A DNA stretch of 64,000 bases from Sulfurospirillum arcachonense DSM 9755 (GCF_000597725.1 NZ_JFBL01000001.1:248001-312000), one strand, 5' to 3'; positions 25,951 to 37,266 are shown, counted from the first letter of the stretch. Program-made: numbers and translations. Notes: generated from the letters alone by a model not told the origin.

Positions 25951-26160
25951 AATTTTCCTTTTATTAGCATAGCCGTATTGTATCAAATTGTTACAAAATA
26001 TAAATAATAATTATTCATGTTTTTATGCATAAATTCTCCAATAAAGCGTCTATATAGTCATTTTTACTATTTTTGATAAAACTCCTACGTATATTTGTCA
26101 GTTTCGTGCTAGGCTTGATTGATAATATAACTTAACAAATATATTACTTAAGGAGTAACA

Positions 26161-27165
26161 ATGAAAAAAACTGATTTACTGAGAAAATCAGCAAAAATCT
26201 TAGGAGGAGCTGCATTAGCTTGTGGAATGCTTGTAAGTTCAAGTTTAGCAGCAGACAAGTTCCCTACTAAACCAATTAACTTAGTTGTTGGATTTGGTAT
26301 TGGTGGTAGTGCTGATAGAATGTCACGTTCTATGTCTTCATTCCTTTCTGATACACTTGATGAGCGTGTAAAAGTAATCAACAAAAAAGGTGCTGGTACT
26401 CAAATAGCAGCAAATTATGTTCTTAGAAAACCAGCAGATGGTTATACTGTATTTGCTTCAACATTTACACCATACTTAGCAAACACTATTCTAACTGGTG
26501 GTGCTAAATATAAAATTGAAGATTTTGATTATATGAATATCCAGTGGTATGATTATGACCTAATCGCAGTAAATAGTAAAACTCCATATAAATCTTTAAA
26601 AGAAATTTTAGAGACAATCAAAAATGAACCTAAAAAAATCAAAGCAGCAGTTCTTCAAGGCTCAGGTGGTCACCTTCTTTTAAAAATGTTATTAGAAAAA
26701 CATGGTATTCCTAGTGAAAACTTAAATCTTGTAACATACCAAAGTGGTGGAAAAGCTCGTGCAGCAGTTGCTGGTGGTCAAGTTGATTTGATTGCTATTA
26801 GTGCTGAAGGTAGTGAAAGTATTCGTGAGTTCTTAACTCCTCTTGCTATTTTTAAAGAAGAGCGTCATCCAAAATGGGACGTACCAACAGTAAATGAAGC
26901 AGTAAAAGAGTTAGGTTACCAACTTCCTTTCTTTAATGGTTCTATGAGAGGTTTTGCTGTAAGTGCAAAAATGAAAAAAGAGCACCCTGCAAGATATGCA
27001 ACTTTAGTAGATGCGATTAAAAAAACATTAGCTAAAAAAGATGTTCAAAAGTTTTTGAAAAAAAGTAAAATTGGTGGAACATGGACTGGTCCAGAAAAAT
27101 CAAATGCAATCTTAAAAGAGTCATTTGCAGTTTATAAAAAATATGGTTATTTACTGAAAAAATAA
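26161..27165 (+). CDS. tctC: Tripartite tricarboxylate transporter substrate-binding protein
   Basis: This is the periplasmic binding protein of a TTT transporter. The 334-aa protein has a signal peptide of about 30 residues (cleavage after SSSLAA), then the Bug/TctC fold with KPINLVVGFGIGGSADRMSR, NKKGAGTQIAANYVLRKPADGYT and the SGGKARAAVAGGQVDL block. It is first in tctCBA. Citrate is the likely ligand because citrate lyase and a TctDE-type system are adjacent; other tri- or dicarboxylates remain possible. The ribosome site AAGGAG is strong. Confidence 0.93.
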   Translation: MKKTDLLRKSAKILGGAALACGMLVSSSLAADKFPTKPINLVVGFGIGGSADRMSRSMSSFLSDTLDERVKVINKKGAGTQIAANYVLRKPADGYTVFASTFTPYLANTILTGGAKYKIEDFDYMNIQWYDYDLIAVNSKTPYKSLKEILETIKNEPKKIKAAVLQGSGGHLLLKMLLEKHGIPSENLNLVTYQSGGKARAAVAGGQVDLIAISAEGSESIREFLTPLAIFKEERHPKWDVPTVNEAVKELGYQLPFFNGSMRGFAVSAKMKKEHPARYATLVDAIKKTLAKKDVQKFLKKSKIGGTWTGPEKSNAILKESFAVYKKYGYLLKK

Positions 27166-27186
27166 CAATCAAGGTTTGGAGATTTT

Positions 27187-27642
27187 ATGGGAAACTTAAG
27201 TCTAGATAAACGCGTCAATTTTGGCGTTCTTTTAGCTGTTACTTTTTTTATACTATGGTATTTATATGATGCATACAAAGCATTAGCAAGTATAGAAAAT
27301 TTGATATTAATAGGACCTATTGCTATTGTGACATTAGGTTTATGTGCTGCAGAATTCATTAGATATTTGCGTGAAGATGAAAAAACAGATAGCAAAAAGG
27401 AGAGCATCAGAGATGTTCTCCCTGCTATGGTCATTTTTTCAGGTTATATTCTTTCATTAGAATATTTAGGTTTTGATATAGGAACAACTCTTTTTACTGC
27501 AATCTTTTTAAAAGTGCATGGTGAAAAAAATTGGAAATTGATTGTAATTTATAGTTTACTATTTGGTTTTTTAGTTCCTTATTTCTTTTCACAGATGTTG
27601 CCTTATCCAATGCCAATGTCTATCTTACCAACTGATTATTAA
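27187..27642 (+). CDS. tctB: Tripartite tricarboxylate transporter small membrane subunit
   Basis: This 151-aa protein has four hydrophobic segments, at about residues 12-28, 36-55, 76-97 and 115-140, as expected for TctB. It lies 21 bases after tctC and 9 before tctA. It has little sequence conservation of its own, so the call rests on size, topology and position. It forms the membrane complex with TctA. Confidence 0.9.
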   Translation: MGNLSLDKRVNFGVLLAVTFFILWYLYDAYKALASIENLILIGPIAIVTLGLCAAEFIRYLREDEKTDSKKESIRDVLPAMVIFSGYILSLEYLGFDIGTTLFTAIFLKVHGEKNWKLIVIYSLLFGFLVPYFFSQMLPYPMPMSILPTDY

Positions 27643-27651
27643 GGAGCACAT

Positions 27652-29163
27652 ATGAATCCATTAGATTTAATAGATTTTGGAGCTGCTAGTGATGCTCTTA
27701 CTCTACTCTTTTCAGAACCTTCTTACTGGTTGGTTGTATTTCCTGGTATCTTGATTGGTCTTGTTTTTGGAGCAACTCCTGGACTACAAATATCAATGGC
27801 AATGGCTATTTTTATGCCTATGACTCTATATATGGACTTTTTACAAGCTATGCTATTTTTAACGGCTATATTTACGGGTGGTTCATTTGGTGGTGGTGTT
27901 CCTGCAATTTTGATGAATATTCCGGGAACTTCTTCGTGTATAGCTACAGCCTTTGATGGTTACCCTATGGCAAAACAAGGTAAACATAATGAAGCTTTAG
28001 GTATCGCTCTTGGTGCTTCTACTTTTGGTGTTTTTCTTGGTTATATTATGCTTTTCATGCTTATCAAACCTCTTTCAGTCATGGTACTGAAAATTGGTCC
28101 TGCTGAAATGTTTATCGTAATCCTTTGGGGTATTACTCTTATAGCAAGTCTTAGAGGAACTCATATCCTAAAAGGTTTAATTGCTGGTTTTGTAGGACTT
28201 CTTATAGGTACTATTGGATTTAACGAAGAAGGAACACTAAGAGGAACTTTAGGCAACGAATATCTTCTAGATGGTGTACCTGTTGTTCCAGCTATGATGG
28301 GTATGTTTGCTGCAAGTGAACTTTTTAGACTTGTTAAAACAAACTACTTAGTTGAAGATGAAGGTCAGAGAAAAGTAAGGTTAACTTCTATCATGAAAGG
28401 TTTTCGTAGTGCCTTTAAACATCCTGTTATTTTGATAAGAGGAAGTATTATAGGTATTTTTATTGGAGCAGTTCCAGGTGTTGGCTCATCTGTTTCAAAC
28501 CTCATTTCATATATGGAAACAAAAAGAAGAGATAAAGATCCAGAAAGTTTTGGAAAAGGTAATCCAAAAGGAATCGTAGCTTCAGAGTCCGCAAACTCAA
28601 CAAGTGAAGCGGGTTCAATGGCAACACTTTTAGCACTTGGAATTCCTGGTGGTGGAGCAACTGCTGTTATGCTTGCTGCATTTGCTATGCATAATATCAC
28701 AGGTGGTCCTCAATTTATCCGTGAACAGATGGATGTTGTTTATGCTATTATTTTTGCTAACTTTGGACAGGTATTTTTACTTATTATATTAGGTATTTTA
28801 TGTATTCCTCTTTTAGCTTCTGTTGTAAAAATCAAAATGACTTATTTGATTCCTTCAGTTCTAGCTTTAGCAACTTTAGGTTCATTTGGACTTACAGGGA
28901 ACCTATCAGGTCCAGTTACAGTTTTAGTTTTTGCACTAGTAGGATGGTTCTTCAGACGTTATGATTATTCTGTTCCAGGAGCAGTTATAGGAATGCTTCT
29001 TGGTCGTATGGCTGAGAGTTCATTACTTCATTCATACCAAATAAGTGGTGGTGAATTTTCATACATATTAGAAAGACCAATTGCCCTTGTAATTTTATGT
29101 CTTATGATAGCTTCTTTATTTGGACAAACTATCATCAAAAAAATAATTCAAAAACGTAAATAA
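27652..29163 (+). CDS. tctA: Tripartite tricarboxylate transporter large permease
   Basis: This is the 503-aa permease of the TTT system with about 11-12 membrane segments. The duplicated TctA motif is clear: LVFGATPGLQISMAMAIFMP near residue 40 and IFIGAVPGVGSSVSNLISY near 270, plus GGVPAILMNIPGTSSCIATAFDG and SEAGSMATLLALGIPGGGAT. It imports the substrate with Na+ or H+ by family knowledge. The terminator hairpin at 29178 follows the stop by 14 bases. Confidence 0.95.
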   Translation: MNPLDLIDFGAASDALTLLFSEPSYWLVVFPGILIGLVFGATPGLQISMAMAIFMPMTLYMDFLQAMLFLTAIFTGGSFGGGVPAILMNIPGTSSCIATAFDGYPMAKQGKHNEALGIALGASTFGVFLGYIMLFMLIKPLSVMVLKIGPAEMFIVILWGITLIASLRGTHILKGLIAGFVGLLIGTIGFNEEGTLRGTLGNEYLLDGVPVVPAMMGMFAASELFRLVKTNYLVEDEGQRKVRLTSIMKGFRSAFKHPVILIRGSIIGIFIGAVPGVGSSVSNLISYMETKRRDKDPESFGKGNPKGIVASESANSTSEAGSMATLLALGIPGGGATAVMLAAFAMHNITGGPQFIREQMDVVYAIIFANFGQVFLLIILGILCIPLLASVVKIKMTYLIPSVLALATLGSFGLTGNLSGPVTVLVFALVGWFFRRYDYSVPGAVIGMLLGRMAESSLLHSYQISGGEFSYILERPIALVILCLMIASLFGQTIIKKIIQKRK

Positions 29164-29177
29164 AGTATATCAATGAT

Positions 29178-29208
29178 AAAATAGAGAAGTCTAACTTCTC
29201 TATTTTTT
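29178..29208 (+). terminator. Strong terminator after tctA, before abrB-like start
   Basis: AAAATAGAGAAG and CTTCTCTATTTT form a perfect 12-bp stem around TCTAA, ending in six Ts. Only 11 bases separate its end from the TTG at 29220, so the downstream gene would need read-through or processing. Confidence 0.8.
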
Positions 29209-29219
29209 AAGGAAAATAA

Positions 29220-30269
29220 TTGCTCAAAAAATCTACCCCCTTTTTCCAAGTACTGCTTTCTCTTCTATTAGGACTAGTTGGTGCAATTATTTTTATATAT
29301 TTAAAACTTCCGCTACCATGGTTATTAGGTTCTATTACAGCTATGGCAATTGTTTCAAGAATACCTTTTATTCCAGTTAAAAATCCAAAGGTATTATCTC
29401 CTCCAGCGAGAACTATTTTAGGGCTGATGATAGGAAGTGCTTTCACTCCCTCTATATTTCAAAGTATAGGTCATTATGCAGTGAGTTTGATTATGATTTT
29501 ACCTTTTGTATTTATCATTGCAGTGTGTGGAATTTTTTACTATTGGAAAATCTTAGGTCATGATAAAATGACAGCTTTTTTTAGCTCAATGCCCGGTGGT
29601 CTTTTAGAAATGGTTGCTATTGGTGAATCTATGGGAGCAAATGTTTATAAAATAACTCTTTTTCAATCTACAAGGTTGCTTCTTATTGTATTTTCTTTAC
29701 CCTTTATTATAGAAATTGTCGGAGGCATTAGTTTAGATGGTAACAGAGTCATCTCTACCCCTATAAAAGATGTTCTTTTTACGGATATGTTTATTTTAGT
29801 TTTTATGGCAATTATTGGTGTTTTTTTAGCTAAAAAATTAAATATTTTTGCTCCATATATGATTGGTCCTATGATTGTGAGTATGATTGCACATCTTAGT
29901 GGCTGGGTCACTTCTCACCCACCTGATGAAATAATCAAATTTGTTCAAATCATCCTTGGTACTTCTGTTGGTTTTGTCTTTAGAGGGGTGCCTTTTAAAG
30001 AAATTATTACAACTATACTCAGTACTTTTGGCTACTTTTTTATTCTTATGTGTGTTTGTTCATTGTTTATATTTATAGTTTCTATTAGTACTGATTTTGA
30101 TTTACTTTCTATCATCTTGGCTTTTTCTCCAGGAGGACAAGCAGAAATCAATCTTATTGCTATAGTTGTTGCTGTAAATCTACCTTATGTTGCGTTACAT
30201 CATGTCTTTAGATTATTTTTAGTTATGGGCATTGCTCCACTTTTTGCAAAAAAGTTTATTAACTCTTAA
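29220..30269 (+). CDS. AbrB-family membrane protein (PF05145 type)
   Basis: This integral membrane protein of 349 aa has about ten hydrophobic segments in two similar halves; LPLPWLLGSITAMAIVSR and APYMIGPMIVSMIAHLSGW mark corresponding positions. It belongs to the family named after E. coli AbrB (ammonia monooxygenase-like) and is not the DNA-binding AbrB. The start is TTG at 29220 with AAGGAAAA upstream. Its place after tctCBA suggests a transport role in the same island. It overlaps the convergent sensor kinase gene by 11 bp. Confidence 0.85.
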   Translation: MLKKSTPFFQVLLSLLLGLVGAIIFIYLKLPLPWLLGSITAMAIVSRIPFIPVKNPKVLSPPARTILGLMIGSAFTPSIFQSIGHYAVSLIMILPFVFIIAVCGIFYYWKILGHDKMTAFFSSMPGGLLEMVAIGESMGANVYKITLFQSTRLLLIVFSLPFIIEIVGGISLDGNRVISTPIKDVLFTDMFILVFMAIIGVFLAKKLNIFAPYMIGPMIVSMIAHLSGWVTSHPPDEIIKFVQIILGTSVGFVFRGVPFKEIITTILSTFGYFFILMCVCSLFIFIVSISTDFDLLSIILAFSPGGQAEINLIAIVVAVNLPYVALHHVFRLFLVMGIAPLFAKKFINS

Positions 30270-31617
30270 AGATTATACTCACTTTTAACCCTTGTGGTTT
30301 TTTATTTTCTATCTTAACCAAAGCACGATGAAGCTCAGCTATTTGCTTTACTATACCAAGTCCTAAACCACTTCCCTCTTTTCTAGTATCTAATCTAAAA
30401 AATCTATCATATATATTTAAAAGATATTCATTTGGTATCCCATATCCTTCATCTTCAACACTCAGTATTATGGCGTCATCTTTTTGCAATAAAGACAAAG
30501 TTATTGTGCCTATTGGTTTCTTATCTTCATCTATAGCATATTTTATGGCATTATCTATTAGATTACTTAAAAGTTCCTGTAAGACGATAGGTCCCCCATT
30601 TATCCATATATTTTCACTCACTTCATAAGCAAATTCAAAACCATTTTCATGGATAAAAGGAACTTTTTCCTTTGCAACTTTTTGACACAATTCGCTTAAA
30701 TTTAGAGGTTTAAACCAATCCCTATCAAAAGCATCTGGATTTGTTTTAGCCGCGAGTAATAACTGTTGTGTAGTATGAGCCATACCATCTATGATATTTA
30801 AATATTGGTTTTTGTTGGGACTACTTTTTAAAAGCTTGTCAGTTTCAATAAGTACTTTAAGTTCGCAAAGTGGTGTTCTTAACTGATGAGAAACATCTGC
30901 ATTAAAGTTTTCTACATGCAAAAAACTGTTTTTTAGTTTTATAAAAAGATTATTTATACTTTTAATCAAAGAGTCCACTTCTTGAGGGACCTCTTCTTCT
31001 ATAGGTGTTAAATCATGTATATCTCTTTGTTTTATAAAATATTGTAAATTCACTAAAGGTTCAATACCTTTTTTTACTGCAAAAATAGATGCTATGATGG
31101 CTATAAAAACTATCAAAAAAGTTATACCAATAGTGATTAAAAGAATTTCATTAATAAGTGCTCTTCTCTCTTCTAATGTTTCAGCGACTATAATTGTTGC
31201 ATTATATACTTTTGTATTTCTATACATCTCATATTTGACATACAAAGCACGTACTTCTTGATCTGCATACATTGTATTATAAAACATTCTTTCTTTCGTT
31301 GTATGAGGTTTTGGTATATCTTCATGTCCTACTAAACGTCTTTTATTTCCATCTTCTACACTAAAAAAAACACTTCCTTCTCCTCCACTCGTTTGAATAT
31401 CTATACCAAAATGAGGCAAAGCAAATCTTAAAACACCATCTTTTACATAAAGTCTCTCTTCCATCCCTTTTTCCGCAACTAAAAGTGCATTATCAAAATG
31501 TTGATTGACATTTCTACTTAATAAGAAAAAGATAATCAAAAAAGCTAAAAAACTTACTAAACCAAGAGGGATTGTAAGCCATGTTAAAAGTCGTGAATGT
31601 ATTGATTTAATTTTCAT
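30259..31617 (-). CDS. tctE: Sensor histidine kinase, TctE-like
   Basis: This 452-aa membrane kinase has a first helix at about residues 9-32, a periplasmic sensor region, a second helix at about 163-187 and a HAMP-like linker. The H-box is VSHQLRTPLCELK, followed by N-box ELLSNLIDNAIKYAI and G-boxes VEDEGYGIP and GSGLGLGIVKQIAE. It overlaps the response regulator by four bases (ATGA) and sits at the end of the citrate lyase operon. Tricarboxylate sensing is inferred from context. Gene naming is by role and not by proven orthology. Confidence 0.88.
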   Translation of the reverse strand: MKIKSIHSRLLTWLTIPLGLVSFLAFLIIFFLLSRNVNQHFDNALLVAEKGMEERLYVKDGVLRFALPHFGIDIQTSGGEGSVFFSVEDGNKRRLVGHEDIPKPHTTKERMFYNTMYADQEVRALYVKYEMYRNTKVYNATIIVAETLEERRALINEILLITIGITFLIVFIAIIASIFAVKKGIEPLVNLQYFIKQRDIHDLTPIEEEVPQEVDSLIKSINNLFIKLKNSFLHVENFNADVSHQLRTPLCELKVLIETDKLLKSSPNKNQYLNIIDGMAHTTQQLLLAAKTNPDAFDRDWFKPLNLSELCQKVAKEKVPFIHENGFEFAYEVSENIWINGGPIVLQELLSNLIDNAIKYAIDEDKKPIGTITLSLLQKDDAIILSVEDEGYGIPNEYLLNIYDRFFRLDTRKEGSGLGLGIVKQIAELHRALVKIENKKPQGLKVSIIFKS

Positions 31618-32282
31618 AAATGAATTTGATTGAGTATATAACCTAGCCCACGAACTGTTTTTAAGGAGACCTCATCTCCCAATTTTTTACGAAGCCTTGA
31701 TATATATGTTTCTATTGTAGTTGGGCTAATATCATCATCAAATGAAGCAATATGTTCTACTATATTTTCTTTACTTACAACTTTATTGATATTGACTAAA
31801 AGATATTCAAAAACACTTAGCTCTCGACTACTTAACTCTACTCTTTTTCCATTTTTTGTAAGAGTCCTTGAACTACTATCAAACTCTAAAGAATTGAGTT
31901 TTATAAGCTCTTGTCCATTTTGAAGCAGTCGCCTAAAAAGTGCATTCACTCTTGCAACAACTTCATCAAGTGCAAATGGTTTACAAATATAGTCATCAGC
32001 TCCACTTTCAAGCCCAAGTATTTTTTGATCTAGCTGATCTCTAGCAGAAATTATAAGAACAAGTATTTTTTTCTGATTAGCACGAAGTTTTTTTAGTATA
32101 TCAATTCCATCTATTCCAGGAAGTCCTAAATCTAAGATAAGTAAATCATATTGTTGATACTCTAAAACACTATCTCCATCAGCCCCATCACAAAAAACAT
32201 CAACAGCATACCCTGCCGCAGTTAATTTACCGCTAAGTCCTGATGATAATATCTGATTGTCTTCAAGTATCAAAACCCTCAA
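31614..32282 (-). CDS. tctD: OmpR-family response regulator, TctD-like
   Basis: This 222-aa response regulator has receiver-domain acidic residues at EDN (7-9), phospho-acceptor Asp51 in LLILDLGLPG and Lys in the ICKPFALDEVVAR block, then a C-terminal winged helix (about residues 125-220; ELSSRELSVFEYLL and VETYISRLRKKLG-like). The start is TTG at 32282 with AAGGA six bases upstream. It follows citG by 27 bases, so it is probably transcribed with citCDEFXG. It probably regulates tctCBA and the cit genes; the repeat at 37267-37287 is a candidate site. Confidence 0.9.
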   Translation of the reverse strand: MRVLILEDNQILSSGLSGKLTAAGYAVDVFCDGADGDSVLEYQQYDLLILDLGLPGIDGIDILKKLRANQKKILVLIISARDQLDQKILGLESGADDYICKPFALDEVVARVNALFRRLLQNGQELIKLNSLEFDSSSRTLTKNGKRVELSSRELSVFEYLLVNINKVVSKENIVEHIASFDDDISPTTIETYISRLRKKLGDEVSLKTVRGLGYILNQIHL

Positions 32283-32309
32283 TAATAATCCTTTAATTTG
32301 AAAAGATTA

Positions 32310-33092
32310 TTATAGCATATCTAATTGTGCTAAAAACCAAGTAAGTCCTAACAAGTCTGCACTTCCACCAGCCGATAAATTTTTTTCTATCATGACTTCA
32401 TCAAACTCATTTAGGCAATCTTCAAGTAAAGATATATCTTTTACATGTAAAAGTTTTTTAGCTTCTTTTTGAACAAATCGAAGCCCTTCTAATCCACCTC
32501 TTGCAAAAAGAGTACTATCTTCTGTTATACTCATTAATAAAAGAAGTGTTAATTTAAGAGCTATATCTTCACCATATTTATTTTGCTGTTCTAGAAAAAA
32601 AGGCAAAGATTTTTCAAAAATAGTTGGATAACCTCTACTAGCTTCTCCTCTTATTCCTTCACTTTTTGTTTGAGCATAAAACCTTTCTCCATGAGTCTTT
32701 ACATGTAAAGCTTTTTCTAAATCATTTTGAACTAAATCTTTACATATATATTTTATCTCACCTCTTAAAGTTTTTAAACATGTATATCCTACACTTCCTA
32801 ATGCACCACAAATAACAGCTAAAGAAAAAATCATCCCTTTATGCGTATTGATTCCATTGGTTGTCAAAAACATCGCTTTTTCACACTCTATTCCAATTTT
32901 ACGTAAACCATCAAAATCATTTCCACATTTATAAAACTCATCTATAAAAGGTTTAATAGCCTCAGCACTATTATAAAAGGTTTGTATATTCATGTCTTTA
33001 TGAGAACCATTATTTCCTTTATCAACGAGACCTGGTTTTGGAGTAAGTTCTACTTCTTTGATTAAAGCATTATAAGCTAATTTTGTAATCAT
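32310..33092 (-). CDS. citG: Triphosphoribosyl-dephospho-CoA synthase
   Basis: This enzyme makes the precursor of the citrate lyase prosthetic group, 2'-(5''-triphosphoribosyl)-3'-dephospho-CoA, from ATP and dephospho-CoA. The 260-aa protein has the CitG motifs ELTPKPGLVDKGNNGSHKDM, GINTHKGMIFSLA and EDSTLFARGGLEGLRF. It overlaps citX by 23 bp. TACATGTA copies at 32442 (LHVKDI) and 32700 (LHVKTH). It is shorter than E. coli CitG (about 290 aa) but keeps all the core blocks. Confidence 0.93.
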   Translation of the reverse strand: MITKLAYNALIKEVELTPKPGLVDKGNNGSHKDMNIQTFYNSAEAIKPFIDEFYKCGNDFDGLRKIGIECEKAMFLTTNGINTHKGMIFSLAVICGALGSVGYTCLKTLRGEIKYICKDLVQNDLEKALHVKTHGERFYAQTKSEGIRGEASRGYPTIFEKSLPFFLEQQNKYGEDIALKLTLLLLMSITEDSTLFARGGLEGLRFVQKEAKKLLHVKDISLLEDCLNEFDEVMIEKNLSAGGSADLLGLTWFLAQLDML

Positions 33093-33567
33093 CTACTGTT
33101 TTACTTATAAAATCTAATAATTGGGTGATTGAATGTTTTTGACTTCTTGCACACTCTTTTGCATTAGTATCACAAATATAACATTTTCTTGGAACTTTTC
33201 TTGAAAGTATTTTTTTGTGTTCATCTATAACATCTATGTCCATAAAACGGCCTAAGGGATGTGTTTCTTCAATTTTACATGTAAGAAGTTTTAGTTTTTG
33301 TGCATCTGTTTTAAAACTAAATAAAGCCTCACATCCAGTCTGTTTACATATAAGATTTTTATCTATCTCTTGAAGTCCCAATAAGTCTATCTCTTTTAAA
33401 GCAACTCCATAAATAAACTGTGCATCAGGGCTTAGCTTATCCGCCCCTGGAATATTTATAGTGAGACTTAGAACAGGGGAATTATAACGTTCTATGAATT
33501 CCCACTGTTTTTTTTGTCTTAGTTCTCTATTTTCAAGAACTCTATTTAGCCAGTTGTTTAACTTCAT
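33070..33567 (-). CDS. citX: Apo-citrate lyase phosphoribosyl-dephospho-CoA transferase
   Basis: This enzyme transfers the prosthetic group to the serine of CitD. The 165-aa protein has the CitX pattern: an N-terminal LENRELRQKKQWEF helix, TINIPGADKLS, then THPLGRFMDIDVID and a Cys-bearing PRKCYICDTNAKECARS near the end. It overlaps citF by 26 bp and citG by 23 bp, so translation is tightly coupled. A TACATGTA copy at 33276 encodes LTCKIE. Confidence 0.92.
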   Translation of the reverse strand: MKLNNWLNRVLENRELRQKKQWEFIERYNSPVLSLTINIPGADKLSPDAQFIYGVALKEIDLLGLQEIDKNLICKQTGCEALFSFKTDAQKLKLLTCKIEETHPLGRFMDIDVIDEHKKILSRKVPRKCYICDTNAKECARSQKHSITQLLDFISKTVDDYKISL

Positions 33568-35008
33568 CTAAAACAGAGCCATCTCTATATCTAATTTGTG
33601 CTACAACCTTATCTGTATACTCTATATCTTTTGGTTTACCACAAAGTTGGATTGCTCTTTCATATAACTCATTTATATCTACTATAGTAAGACCTGCTTT
33701 TATAAGTTTTTCTTTTAGTTCAGTGTTTCTTGGGTGAACGGCAATTCCTTGATCTGTCACGACAACATCAACACTTCCACCAGGAGTTACAATTGTATTT
33801 ACTTTTTTTGTAATTGTTGGAATTCTACCACGAGTCAGTGGTGCTACAATGATAGAAAGTTTTGCTTCAGCTGCTGTGTCACTATGACCTCCACTAGCCC
33901 CTCTTAAAATACCTTTTGAACCAGTTATTACATTTACATTAAAATCGGTATCAATTTCAAGTGCACTTAAAACAACCACATCAAGTTGCTTGATTGCTGC
34001 ACCTTTTGAGCCAAAATTTGCATACTCATTTGCACTTATTTCTATGTGATTTGGGTTTTCTCCTAAAGATTTTGCTGCAAATTCATCAAAACTTTGCACA
34101 TCTAAAAGAGTTTTAATGAGACCACGTTTAAGCATATATACCATTGTTCCAGTAATTCCACCTAAACCAAAACTAGCAGTTATCCCTTTTTCTTCCATTT
34201 TTTCACTAAGAAAAAGTGTAGTTGCTAAAGATGCTCCACCGGTACCTGTTTGAATACTAAAACCTTCTTTAAATAATCCAGAATTTTCTATAACACGAGC
34301 TGTTCTTCTAGCAAGTAGTAACTCTTTTGGATTAGTTGTCATTCTTGTAGCTCCCTCACCTATTTGGCTAGGATCTCCTACTTCATCAACCATAACAATA
34401 GAATCTACTTGATCTTGAGAAATAGATGCTGGCAAATTTGGATATGGTTCCATTGTTTCACTTAAAGCTATAACATATTTTGCATACTGTGCATCACTCA
34501 TAGCATACCCTAAAGAACCGCATTTTGAACGTCCTTTATATCCACTTGCATTTCCATATTTGTCAATACAAGGAACACCGATAAAAGCCACATCTACACT
34601 TAGTTCACCACTTTGTAAAAGCTGAACTCTTCCACCATGAGAATGTATTTGAACAGGATTTTTCATAATACCACTGGAAATAGCTTCTCCAAGTTTACTT
34701 CTAAGACCTGAAGTATATAACTGTGTAACTACTCCTGATTCAATATGCTCAATAATTTCATCATGTACAGAGGCAAGTGAACTTGAAGCTACTGTCAAAT
34801 CTTTAAATCCCATTTTAGCTATAACACTTAAAACAGCATTTAAAACCCTATCTCCGCCACGAAATGCATGATGAAAAGATATAGTCATACCATCTTTTAA
34901 TCCAGATTTTTTAACTGCCTCTTCAATACTAGAAAGTATTTTTGAATTTCTATCTTCTAAATTTATATTTTTACTAATTCCCGCAAAAGCTTTTTTTGTA
35001 TTTTCCAT
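33542..35008 (-). CDS. citF: Citrate lyase alpha subunit (citrate:acetyl-ACP transferase)
   Basis: This subunit exchanges the acetyl group on the CitD acyl carrier for citrate. It is a 488-aa class I CoA-transferase-like protein with ISFHHAFRGGDRVLN, SHGGRVQLLQSGE, FIGVPCIDKYGNASGYKG, TGTGGASLATTLFLSE and RGRIPTITKKVNTIVTPG. Length is close to the usual 500-510. It begins one base after citE. It is part of the CitDEF complex in the cytoplasm. Confidence 0.96.
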   Translation of the reverse strand: MENTKKAFAGISKNINLEDRNSKILSSIEEAVKKSGLKDGMTISFHHAFRGGDRVLNAVLSVIAKMGFKDLTVASSSLASVHDEIIEHIESGVVTQLYTSGLRSKLGEAISSGIMKNPVQIHSHGGRVQLLQSGELSVDVAFIGVPCIDKYGNASGYKGRSKCGSLGYAMSDAQYAKYVIALSETMEPYPNLPASISQDQVDSIVMVDEVGDPSQIGEGATRMTTNPKELLLARRTARVIENSGLFKEGFSIQTGTGGASLATTLFLSEKMEEKGITASFGLGGITGTMVYMLKRGLIKTLLDVQSFDEFAAKSLGENPNHIEISANEYANFGSKGAAIKQLDVVVLSALEIDTDFNVNVITGSKGILRGASGGHSDTAAEAKLSIIVAPLTRGRIPTITKKVNTIVTPGGSVDVVVTDQGIAVHPRNTELKEKLIKAGLTIVDINELYERAIQLCGKPKDIEYTDKVVAQIRYRDGSVLDEVKQLAK

Positions 35009-35009
35009 T

Positions 35010-35885
35010 TTATTCCCTTATCATTCCAGAAGCAACTGCTAACTCTAATGTCCATTTCGCTCGTGCAATAATTGGAGCATCTACCATACGACCATCAAGA
35101 GAAACAACACCTAACCCTTTTTCTTCTGCTTCTTTTGCAGCTTCAATAACTTCAAGTGACCAATCAACATCTGTTTGAGAAGGAGCATATGCATCATGCA
35201 AAACTGAAATTTGATTTGGGTTGACTAAAGATTTACCGTCAAATCCTAATCCTTTCACATATTTTACTTCTGCTAAAAATCCTTCTTTATCCTTGACATC
35301 AGAAAAAACAGAATCAAAAGCATGAATTTTAGCTGCACGAGCCGCAAGTAAAATTTGAGAACGAGCTGCCATAAGCTCAGATCCCTGTTTTGTTCTTTGA
35401 GTATGTAAATCTCTTACAAAATCTTCAGCACCTAATGCTATTCCCATGAGCCTATCACTACATCTTGCAATATTAACTGCATTAACGACACCTTCAGCGC
35501 TTTCTATTGCTGCTAGAAGTTGTGTCTTTTTTGTTCTGCCAATTTTTTCTTCTATTTTTTCTATTGCATCTTGCATATTTAAAACATCTTCAACTGTATC
35601 AGTTTTTGGAAGTCTTACTATATCTGTTCCTGCTCTTACAACAGCTTCTAAATCAAGTAACCCATAAGGACTATCAAGTGGATTAACACGAACAGCTGTT
35701 TCTACGTTTTTATATACAAAATGTTGCAATGCATGAAAAACCATAAGTCTTGCAGAATCTTTTTCGCTTAGAGCGACTGAATCTTCTAAATCAAACATAA
35801 CAGTATCAGGCTTATAAATAAAAGCATTACAAACCATAGACGTATTAGAACCTGGAACAAAAAGCATACTTCTTCTTAATTTCAT
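35010..35885 (-). CDS. citE: Citrate lyase beta subunit (citryl-ACP lyase)
   Basis: This subunit cleaves citryl-CitD to acetyl-CitD and oxaloacetate. It is an HpcH/HpaI TIM-barrel protein with LRRSMLFVPGSN, MFDLEDSVAL, AVRVNPLDSPYG, AAIESAEGVVNA and GAEDFVRDL, which includes the Mg2+-binding acidic residues. The frame opens at 35900, but GGGAGGAA sits seven bases before the ATG at 35885. That start gives a 4-bp ATGA overlap with citD and the canonical MKLRRSMLF N-terminus (291 aa), so I use it. Confidence 0.96.
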   Translation of the reverse strand: MKLRRSMLFVPGSNTSMVCNAFIYKPDTVMFDLEDSVALSEKDSARLMVFHALQHFVYKNVETAVRVNPLDSPYGLLDLEAVVRAGTDIVRLPKTDTVEDVLNMQDAIEKIEEKIGRTKKTQLLAAIESAEGVVNAVNIARCSDRLMGIALGAEDFVRDLHTQRTKQGSELMAARSQILLAARAAKIHAFDSVFSDVKDKEGFLAEVKYVKGLGFDGKSLVNPNQISVLHDAYAPSQTDVDWSLEVIEAAKEAEEKGLGVVSLDGRMVDAPIIARAKWTLELAVASGMIRE

Positions 35886-36181
35886 GATAGTTCCTCCCAT
35901 ACAGGTTCATTTGATTCACATGCTCTTAGAATTGCTGCTTGTAATCTTGCTTTTATAACAAAATCCAGAGCGCCTTTATCTTGTACTTTTACTAAAATAT
36001 TATTTATTTTCATCTCTTTTAAAGTTTGTACAACTAACTCTTCTATAGCTTCGCCATAGATTTCTTCAACACTACTTTCAAGAATTAACTTGATTTCATT
36101 TTCTTGTATTGGACTTACATGTATATAAGCATCACTAGATTCTAGAGTACCTGCATAAGCACTTTTTTTCAATATATTCAT
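35882..36181 (-). CDS. citD: Citrate lyase acyl carrier protein (gamma subunit)
   Basis: This 99-aa carrier holds the phosphoribosyl-dephospho-CoA group. The attachment serine is Ser15 in AGTLESSDAYI, matching the AGTLESSD motif of Klebsiella CitD. It starts 8 bases after citC and overlaps citE by four bases. A TACATGTA copy at 36116 lies just after the attachment motif (YIHVSP). Confidence 0.95.
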   Translation of the reverse strand: MNILKKSAYAGTLESSDAYIHVSPIQENEIKLILESSVEEIYGEAIEELVVQTLKEMKINNILVKVQDKGALDFVIKARLQAAILRACESNEPVWEELS

Positions 36182-36189
36182 AAAATTCC

Positions 36190-37200
36190 CTATATCCTTT
36201 TCACTAAAAAATCAAATGTAGTTGGAGGTACTATATTTGACAACTCATCATACTTCTTATCTTTTAATAAAGCTCTAACACTTGAGGCTGATATTGCTTT
36301 ATCTTTATACTCTTTTCTTTCAATTTCTATAACTTCTATATTGTTTGATTTTGGATTACTCTCTCCTAAAACTTTTTTCATATTCTGATTATAATTATTA
36401 GTTACCGTACAATAAGGCTCAGTTCCCACAAATCTATGGGTGATATTTAGCGAAGGTGCTATTTGGTTTCTAAAGATACTTAAATCAAGTTTGGCATGAA
36501 GCTCATTTATAGAACACTTATCTTTGATAAAATAAGTCGGAAATGTAGCCTTTGAAATAATATAATCAGAACCCTCGTGAATAGTTATATTTTCTATATC
36601 AGCCAAACCTTTTTGAATAAGATTTATTCTATCTTTAAATGAAAAGTCACTTGCATCTTCTCTTACTACAAATATATGAAGATGATCAGACTTTTTAGCT
36701 GCCTCTTCTACGAGGTAACGATGCCCTAAAGTAAAAGGATTTGCATTCATTACTATACTTCCTATTACATTTCCATCTTTTTTTAGCCGAGATAAATTAT
36801 TTTTGTATTTTTTTAAGTTTTTACTATTTTCCATCAAAATTATTTTTGAATCGCACTCTTCAATGAGTTGAAAACCACACTCTTCAAAAAATGCTATGTT
36901 TTTTGGGGTACTATAAATAAAAAGTTCTTTTCTTCCTCTATCATTTGCAGCATTTAAAAGTTCAGTCATAACTGAAAGTACAAAACCCTCACCTCTTTTT
37001 TCAGGAGAAACAGCAATACACTTTAAAACATTACCAGAGAGTCCACCACACGCTATCATTTTACTTTTTTCTTTAGCAGATACAAACACTTCAATATCAG
37101 GAGACAATTCTAATTCAACAGAGTTCAAAAAAGCTTCAACTTTTTTTACTCTAATTTTACTAGTGTTATCAAACTGGGAAAAACTTATTGATGAATTCAT
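36190..37200 (-). CDS. citC: [Citrate (pro-3S)-lyase] ligase
   Basis: This enzyme acetylates the CitD prosthetic group with acetate and ATP, which activates the lyase. The 336-aa protein has an N-terminal GNAT-like domain (about 20-125; CIAVSPEKRGEGFVLSVMTE) and a C-terminal nucleotidyltransferase domain with GSIVMNANPFTLGHRYLVEEA and the ISASSVRALLKD motif. It is first of the operon, with TATAAT upstream at 37226-37231 and GGAG before the ATG. Confidence 0.95.
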   Translation of the reverse strand: MNSSISFSQFDNTSKIRVKKVEAFLNSVELELSPDIEVFVSAKEKSKMIACGGLSGNVLKCIAVSPEKRGEGFVLSVMTELLNAANDRGRKELFIYSTPKNIAFFEECGFQLIEECDSKIILMENSKNLKKYKNNLSRLKKDGNVIGSIVMNANPFTLGHRYLVEEAAKKSDHLHIFVVREDASDFSFKDRINLIQKGLADIENITIHEGSDYIISKATFPTYFIKDKCSINELHAKLDLSIFRNQIAPSLNITHRFVGTEPYCTVTNNYNQNMKKVLGESNPKSNNIEVIEIERKEYKDKAISASSVRALLKDKKYDELSNIVPPTTFDFLVKRI

Positions 37201-37225: not shown

Positions 37226-37231
37226 ATTATA
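37226..37231 (-). promoter_or_regulatory. -10 box of the cit operon
   Basis: TATAAT reads on the minus strand (GTGCTATAATTCGCG), 25 bases before the citC ATG. Transcription would start near 37219, leaving a short leader with GGAG. Confidence 0.6.
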
Positions 37232-37266
37232 GCACGTTATACTTGCATATAACTTACAAAATTCTT

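Follow-up and report, generated by a model that had tools for sequence, protein, structure and literature searches.

Architecture of the locus

The window, by which we mean the whole 64-kb stretch of DNA analyzed here, has a GC content of 31% and belongs to a genome (G000) of 2.66 Mb in 42 contigs. Between positions 26161 and 37200 it carries 12 contiguous genes, all with intact reading frames. On the plus strand lie the genes for the three parts of a tripartite tricarboxylate transporter (TTT), namely tctC (26161–27165) for the periplasmic solute-binding protein, tctB (27187–27642) for the small membrane subunit and tctA (27652–29163) for the large one, followed by abrB (29220–30269), which encodes a duplicated integral-membrane protein. 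Convergent to these, on the minus strand, runs the series citC-citD-citE-citF-citX-citG-tctD-tctE. Its first gene, citC (36190–37200), encodes the citrate lyase ligase that acetylates the acyl carrier protein (ACP); citD (35882–36181), citE (35010–35900) and citF (33542–35008) encode the ACP, the beta subunit (citryl-ACP lyase) and the alpha subunit (acetyl-ACP:citrate ACP transferase), respectively. The prosthetic group is the business of citX (33070–33567), a holo-ACP synthase that transfers it, and citG (32310–33092), a triphosphoribosyl-dephospho-CoA synthase that makes its precursor. The series closes with genes for a TctD-like OmpR-family response regulator (31614–32282) and a TctE-like sensor histidine kinase (30259–31617), the stop of the latter overlapping that of abrB.

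Four minus-strand junctions overlap (citD-citE, citF-citX, citX-citG and tctD-tctE) and only 27 bases separate citG from tctD, so citCDEFXG-tctDE probably forms one transcript. A candidate extended -10 promoter element, GTGCTATAAT, lies upstream of citC (37226–37235, minus strand) and is kept in G347, G377, G061 and G330, while G399 has the variant CTGCTATAAT. Upstream of tctC, the block TTCGTGCTAG (26103–26112, plus strand) may be a regulatory site, as it is identical in G347 although the rest of the tctC leader has diverged. A search for a shared operator found nothing longer than 10 bases in common between the tctC and citC leaders.

Gene identities

Identities were assigned by profile searches using Pfam cut-offs and NCBIfam equivalog cut-offs. 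The domains of TctC, TctB, TctA, AbrB, CitG, CitX, CitF and CitE all pass the Pfam cut-offs. The equivalog cut-offs are passed by CitG (TIGR03125, 290 bits, cut-off 272), CitX (TIGR03124, 146, cut-off 105), CitF (TIGR01584, 739, cut-off 501), CitD (TIGR01608, 106, cut-off 64) and CitC (TIGR00124, 424, cut-off 262). CitE falls slightly below its cut-off (TIGR01588, 428 bits against 443), despite being 58% identical to E. coli CitE. Aligned with its E. coli counterpart, CitD retains the AGTLES motif, including the serine that carries the prosthetic group. The citrate lyase set is thus complete: all three subunits (alpha, beta and ACP), the ligase and the two enzymes of the prosthetic group are encoded. 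The transporter is likewise encoded as a whole: TctA (PF01970, 5e-123), TctB (PF07331, 2e-13) and TctC (PF03401, 5e-16), the last matching solved TctC/Bug proteins (best 7e-20), all of them distantly related.

The sequence-only reading of this DNA had described a contiguous and complete run of tctCBA, an AbrB-type gene, cit genes and a TctDE-type pair, and the intact frames and profile matches bear this out. Its names for cit and tctCBA also stand, while two others need qualification. The abrB product matches the duplicated membrane family PF05145 (2e-80; TIGR03082), which rules out the DNA-binding AbrB regulator. The response regulator (PF00072 plus PF00486) fails the TctD equivalog model (184 bits, cut-off 337), and its best models, PmrA (197), QseB (185) and TctD itself, all score below their cut-offs. 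We therefore call the pair TctDE-like, a label suggested by its neighborhood and by the domain type of the sensor (2CSK_N, PF08521, 6e-23, with a HATPase domain). Citrate is the predicted substrate of TctC and the presumed signal of the TctDE-like pair.

That the lyase is cofactor-dependent rather than ATP-dependent, as first read, is supported by the equivalog matches and by a genome-wide profile search of G000, in which the AclA citrate-binding domain (PF16114) was not found.

Origin and inheritance of the cit operon

Of 397 Campylobacterota genomes, 22 have CitF; Sulfurospirillaceae account for 20 of these and another family for the remaining two. Among named loci, CitF comes closest to those of Sulfurospirillum sp. 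UBA1314 and of two uncultured relatives (80–81%), and these matches sharpen the initial impression of a Campylobacterota-like genome to a probable placement in Sulfurospirillaceae. The two genomes outside the family, G344 and G351 (L131, L132, L133), belong to one genus and carry two citrate lyase copies each; these are unrelated to the Sulfurospirillaceae clade, and one is very divergent (CitF 43% identical).

In the CitE+CitF tree, the 19 Sulfurospirillaceae rows form one clade (100/100) that is joined to Pseudomonadota lyases (100/100). Monophyly of the Pseudomonadota is weak (93/62), so we leave donor and direction at a source from, or alongside, the Pseudomonadota type. In genera g1 and g3 and in one g4 genome, cit adjoins rplS-trmD-rimM-ffh, and for the seven loci at this rplS site the tree of these core genes agrees with the cit tree except for one weak fork (65/42). 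This congruence, together with the CitE+CitF clade, argues for one entry into the ancestor of Sulfurospirillaceae followed by mainly vertical descent. On this phylogenetic evidence, citCDEFXG is a single ancestral acquisition by the family that has been inherited largely vertically. The proposed check of CitF/CitE phylogeny for vertical Campylobacterota inheritance thus gives a divided answer: inside Sulfurospirillaceae the genes descend vertically, yet the family did not obtain them by vertical descent from the phylum, as the AU test rejects a single clade of all Campylobacterota copies (p = 6.4e-5).

A second line of evidence comes from the palindrome TACATGTA, present in 32 copies in the window (3523–62306) against 1.4 expected, and in 1124 copies genome-wide against 54 for a reversed control. 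Most Sulfurospirillaceae genomes hold from hundreds to 1727 copies, and other families 1–23. Four copies lie in the cit genes of G000, and three of these (operon offsets 3917, 4493 and 4751) have the same spacing in G347 (3888, 4464 and 4722). The suggestion that the four copies reflect long residence accordingly holds up for the cit genes, and for them only. Iterated at high copy number across the family, TACATGTA has an extended consensus of about CTTTACATGTAAAG, and is far rarer in a few members (G061, G146, G398). TTACATGTAA was seen 107 times against 0.7 expected, and single-mismatch variants showed no enrichment.

A separate transport and sensing layer

The sequence-only reading had treated all these genes as one coherent island. 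If this were a single, recently acquired catabolic island, the contiguity of all genes and the rarity of CitF in Campylobacterota outside Sulfurospirillaceae would be natural. However, the locus has the same GC content as the genome (32% versus 31%), cit occurs in 20 sampled Sulfurospirillaceae genomes largely in congruence with linked core genes, TACATGTA palindromes sit at shared operon positions, and one congener has the cit operon without the tct cassette. We consider such an origin extremely unlikely. What the comparison points to instead is a family trait kept by vertical descent, to which tctCBA-abrB-tctED was added: the cassette is probably a separate, younger layer that joined cit afterwards, in some members of the window's genus.

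Among the genomes compared, G000 and G347 alone have the cassette at this site, flanked by citG and by a small gene that adjoins rnhA; G347 has the full locus in the same layout. In the congener G399, rnhA and the small gene are followed directly by citG, an order that by itself fits a cassette either never gained or lost. In Sulfurospirillum (g2) genomes, cit is found at another site. There abrB mostly precedes it, a DcuS/DpiB-type sensor and a DcuR/DpiA-type regulator accompany it, and its neighbors are a distant TTT, a DASS carrier or an MFS gene only. The AbrB proteins of G000 and G347 group with the AbrB of a homologous cassette in G350 and not with the cit-linked AbrB of g2, in a grouping that includes one long-branch row from another family. 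Palindrome placement modestly supports the same order of events, with cit older than tct: copies of TACATGTA number zero in the G000 cassette and one in the G347 cassette, where about 5.5 are expected (P ~0.03), and nine in cit.

The G350 cassette (L159 6900–17047), in a relative of Sulfurospirillum, is of tricarballylate type, reading tctCBA-abrB-tcuA-tcuB-tctC2 with a convergent tctDE pair. It lies at another locus, and its identity to the window is 84% for TctA, 67% for TctC and 58% for AbrB; its TcuA scores 666 bits, with TcuB alongside. As this homologous cassette is followed by tcuAB, the window's transporter may take other tricarboxylates. One could go further and suppose that tct-abrB-tctED takes up and senses tricarboxylates in general, or tricarballylate, that its adjacency to cit is accidental and that another carrier feeds cleavage. 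The G350 arrangement would suit this, as would the several DASS carriers of G000 and the presence of TACATGTA in cit and its absence from the cassette. G000, however, lacks a close TcuA (best E 7e-9), tctD follows closely behind citG on the same strand, and the layout of the cassette beside cit is identical in G347. We therefore regard accidental adjacency as unlikely, though deserving of more weight than a single recent island, and prefer a cassette that serves the cit genes it adjoins. G000 also encodes another TTT, on contig C19 (L164 601–12331), in a set that includes CoA-transferase, HMG-CoA-lyase-like and IclR-type genes.

The membrane AbrB family

A PF05145 match above the cut-off was found in 17 of 60 relatives searched. 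Within Sulfurospirillaceae, most g2 genomes have abrB adjacent to citC; in G000, G347 and the G350 cassette it follows tctA. The carriers beside abrB-cit vary: TTTs of two divergent types occur, as does a DASS carrier, and there is also a context with an MFS gene only. Because AbrB stays by cit while the type of neighboring transporter changes, it is a candidate component of citrate uptake and perhaps the carrier itself, a role we put forward tentatively. Six genomes with abrB-cit have no TctA match (G056, G146, G205, G228, G271 and G379). All six have DASS carriers somewhere, close to cit in G228 and G271, which weakens the case for AbrB as the sole possible carrier. CitS-type (2HCT) carriers were absent from the 21 family genomes searched.

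Outside Sulfurospirillaceae, AbrB is rare near citrate lyase loci (two of about 78, one of them adjoining TctA); in one clostridial citrate lyase locus, abrB comes immediately after tctA. A sequence search found no AbrB relatives among solved structures, and a structure prediction with three sequences (pLDDT 42, pTM 0.30) was set aside.

Fate of oxaloacetate

As first noted, there are no oxaloacetate decarboxylase genes within the 64-kb window. The fate of oxaloacetate need not be left open on that account, since a candidate set is found elsewhere in the genome: contig C2 carries the gamma, alpha and beta genes of a Na+-pumping decarboxylase in series (TIGR01195, OadA-like, TIGR01109), followed by the gene for PEP carboxykinase (PckA). 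Citrate synthase is encoded in G000 as well. Since the OadA-like alpha subunit scores far below the cut-off of the OadA equivalog model (311 bits against 757), it is the gene set and the PckA neighbor that suggest oxaloacetate as the substrate. The beta subunit is widespread in the phylum (51 of 200 Campylobacterota genomes), implying that the decarboxylase is independent of cit, and its absence from some cit-bearing relatives (G146, G056) indicates that the two are not obligately linked.

Proposed function and relation to known systems

The system is real and complete, and its mechanism is ordinary. We think it likely that the locus is a classical one for citrate catabolism, its cit genes acquired once by the ancestor of Sulfurospirillaceae and joined later by tctCBA-abrB-tctED. 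Gene content, order, homology, genome-wide partners, phylogeny and synteny are observed here; substrate, co-transcription, regulation and flux are predictions. Periplasmic TctC would capture citrate or related tricarboxylates, and TctAB, possibly with AbrB, would carry citrate into the cell. CitG and CitX would make the phosphoribosyl-dephospho-CoA group and attach it to CitD, where CitC would acetylate it. The CitDEF complex would then exchange acetate for citrate and cleave citryl-ACP to oxaloacetate, regenerating acetyl-ACP. Oxaloacetate could pass to pyruvate through the decarboxylase encoded on contig C2 or to PEP through the adjoining PEP carboxykinase, or alternatively to malate, fumarate and succinate. 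Control of the locus would fall to the TctDE-like pair, whose genes follow citG on its strand.

Among the closest known counterparts is citCDEFXGT of E. coli K-12, which has the same citC-D-E-F-X-G order and the same cofactor-dependent chemistry (identities: CitC 44%, CitD 37%, CitE 58%, CitF 63%, CitX 33%, CitG 46%). The window differs in having TctCBA and AbrB in place of CitT and a TctDE-like pair in place of DpiBA (CitAB), and in G000 the decarboxylase is at a distant locus. The Salmonella tctCBA-tctDE system is a three-part tricarboxylate transporter with a neighboring 2CSK_N sensor kinase and OmpR regulator. The window shares the transporter and the neighboring sensor and regulator, but its tctDE is convergent to tctCBA, and AbrB is added. 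The cit loci of Sulfurospirillum (g2), for example in G234 and G264, belong to the orthologous citCDEFXG clade and also have AbrB adjacent; they differ from the window in chromosomal place, in having a distant TTT (~30% TctA identity) or DASS carrier, and in their DcuS/DpiB-type sensor.

The ATP-citrate lyase (AclAB) known from the reductive TCA cycle also cleaves citrate, but it belongs to another enzyme family and uses ATP-dependent chemistry. Its genes are known in S. multivorans (SMUL_0066-0067; PMC4794192), and G234, a member of the family, has aclA at the position expected from that species, which likewise speaks for the placement in Sulfurospirillaceae. In the openly accessible papers on Sulfurospirillum and Campylobacterota that were read and that name citrate lyase, the enzyme meant is ATP-citrate lyase; the exception is Arcobacter butzleri, which has CitE-like proteins but fails to grow on citrate (PMC2147049). 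Citrate cleavage goes unmentioned in several recent genome papers on Sulfurospirillum. The citCDEFXG system is of a known kind, and in Sulfurospirillaceae it seems unreported as far as we searched, although earlier reports may exist.

A different role for the lyase would be carbon fixation or anaplerosis: where ATP-citrate lyase is lacking, it would split citrate made in the cell as part of a variant reductive TCA cycle. In our tally, 16 family genomes have CitF without AclA, and a Sulfurospirillum lacking ATP-citrate lyase sustained H2-driven nitrate reduction for more than 70 h past acetate depletion (PMC12286921). The authors of that study do not claim autotrophy, however, and the tally also contains 11 family genomes with both CitF and AclA and five with AclA only, which is no pattern of replacement. 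Dedicated transporters and a sensor, moreover, point to external citrate. We judge a fixation role very unlikely and favor catabolism of imported citrate.

Such citrate breakdown would lie outside the usual picture of Campylobacterota, and a family-wide, vertically inherited citrate lyase predicts citrate use by relatives of Sulfurospirillum, possibly in mixed anaerobic communities or in citrate-amended remediation. Through this locus, genetics also gains a direct clue to what the AbrB membrane family does.

In the tally of family genomes, CitF and AclA do not exclude one another. At the site that the tct cassette occupies in the window, the congener G397 (L130 1438–3743) has aclA immediately adjacent to citG, so that both citrate-cleaving enzymes are encoded there as neighbors.
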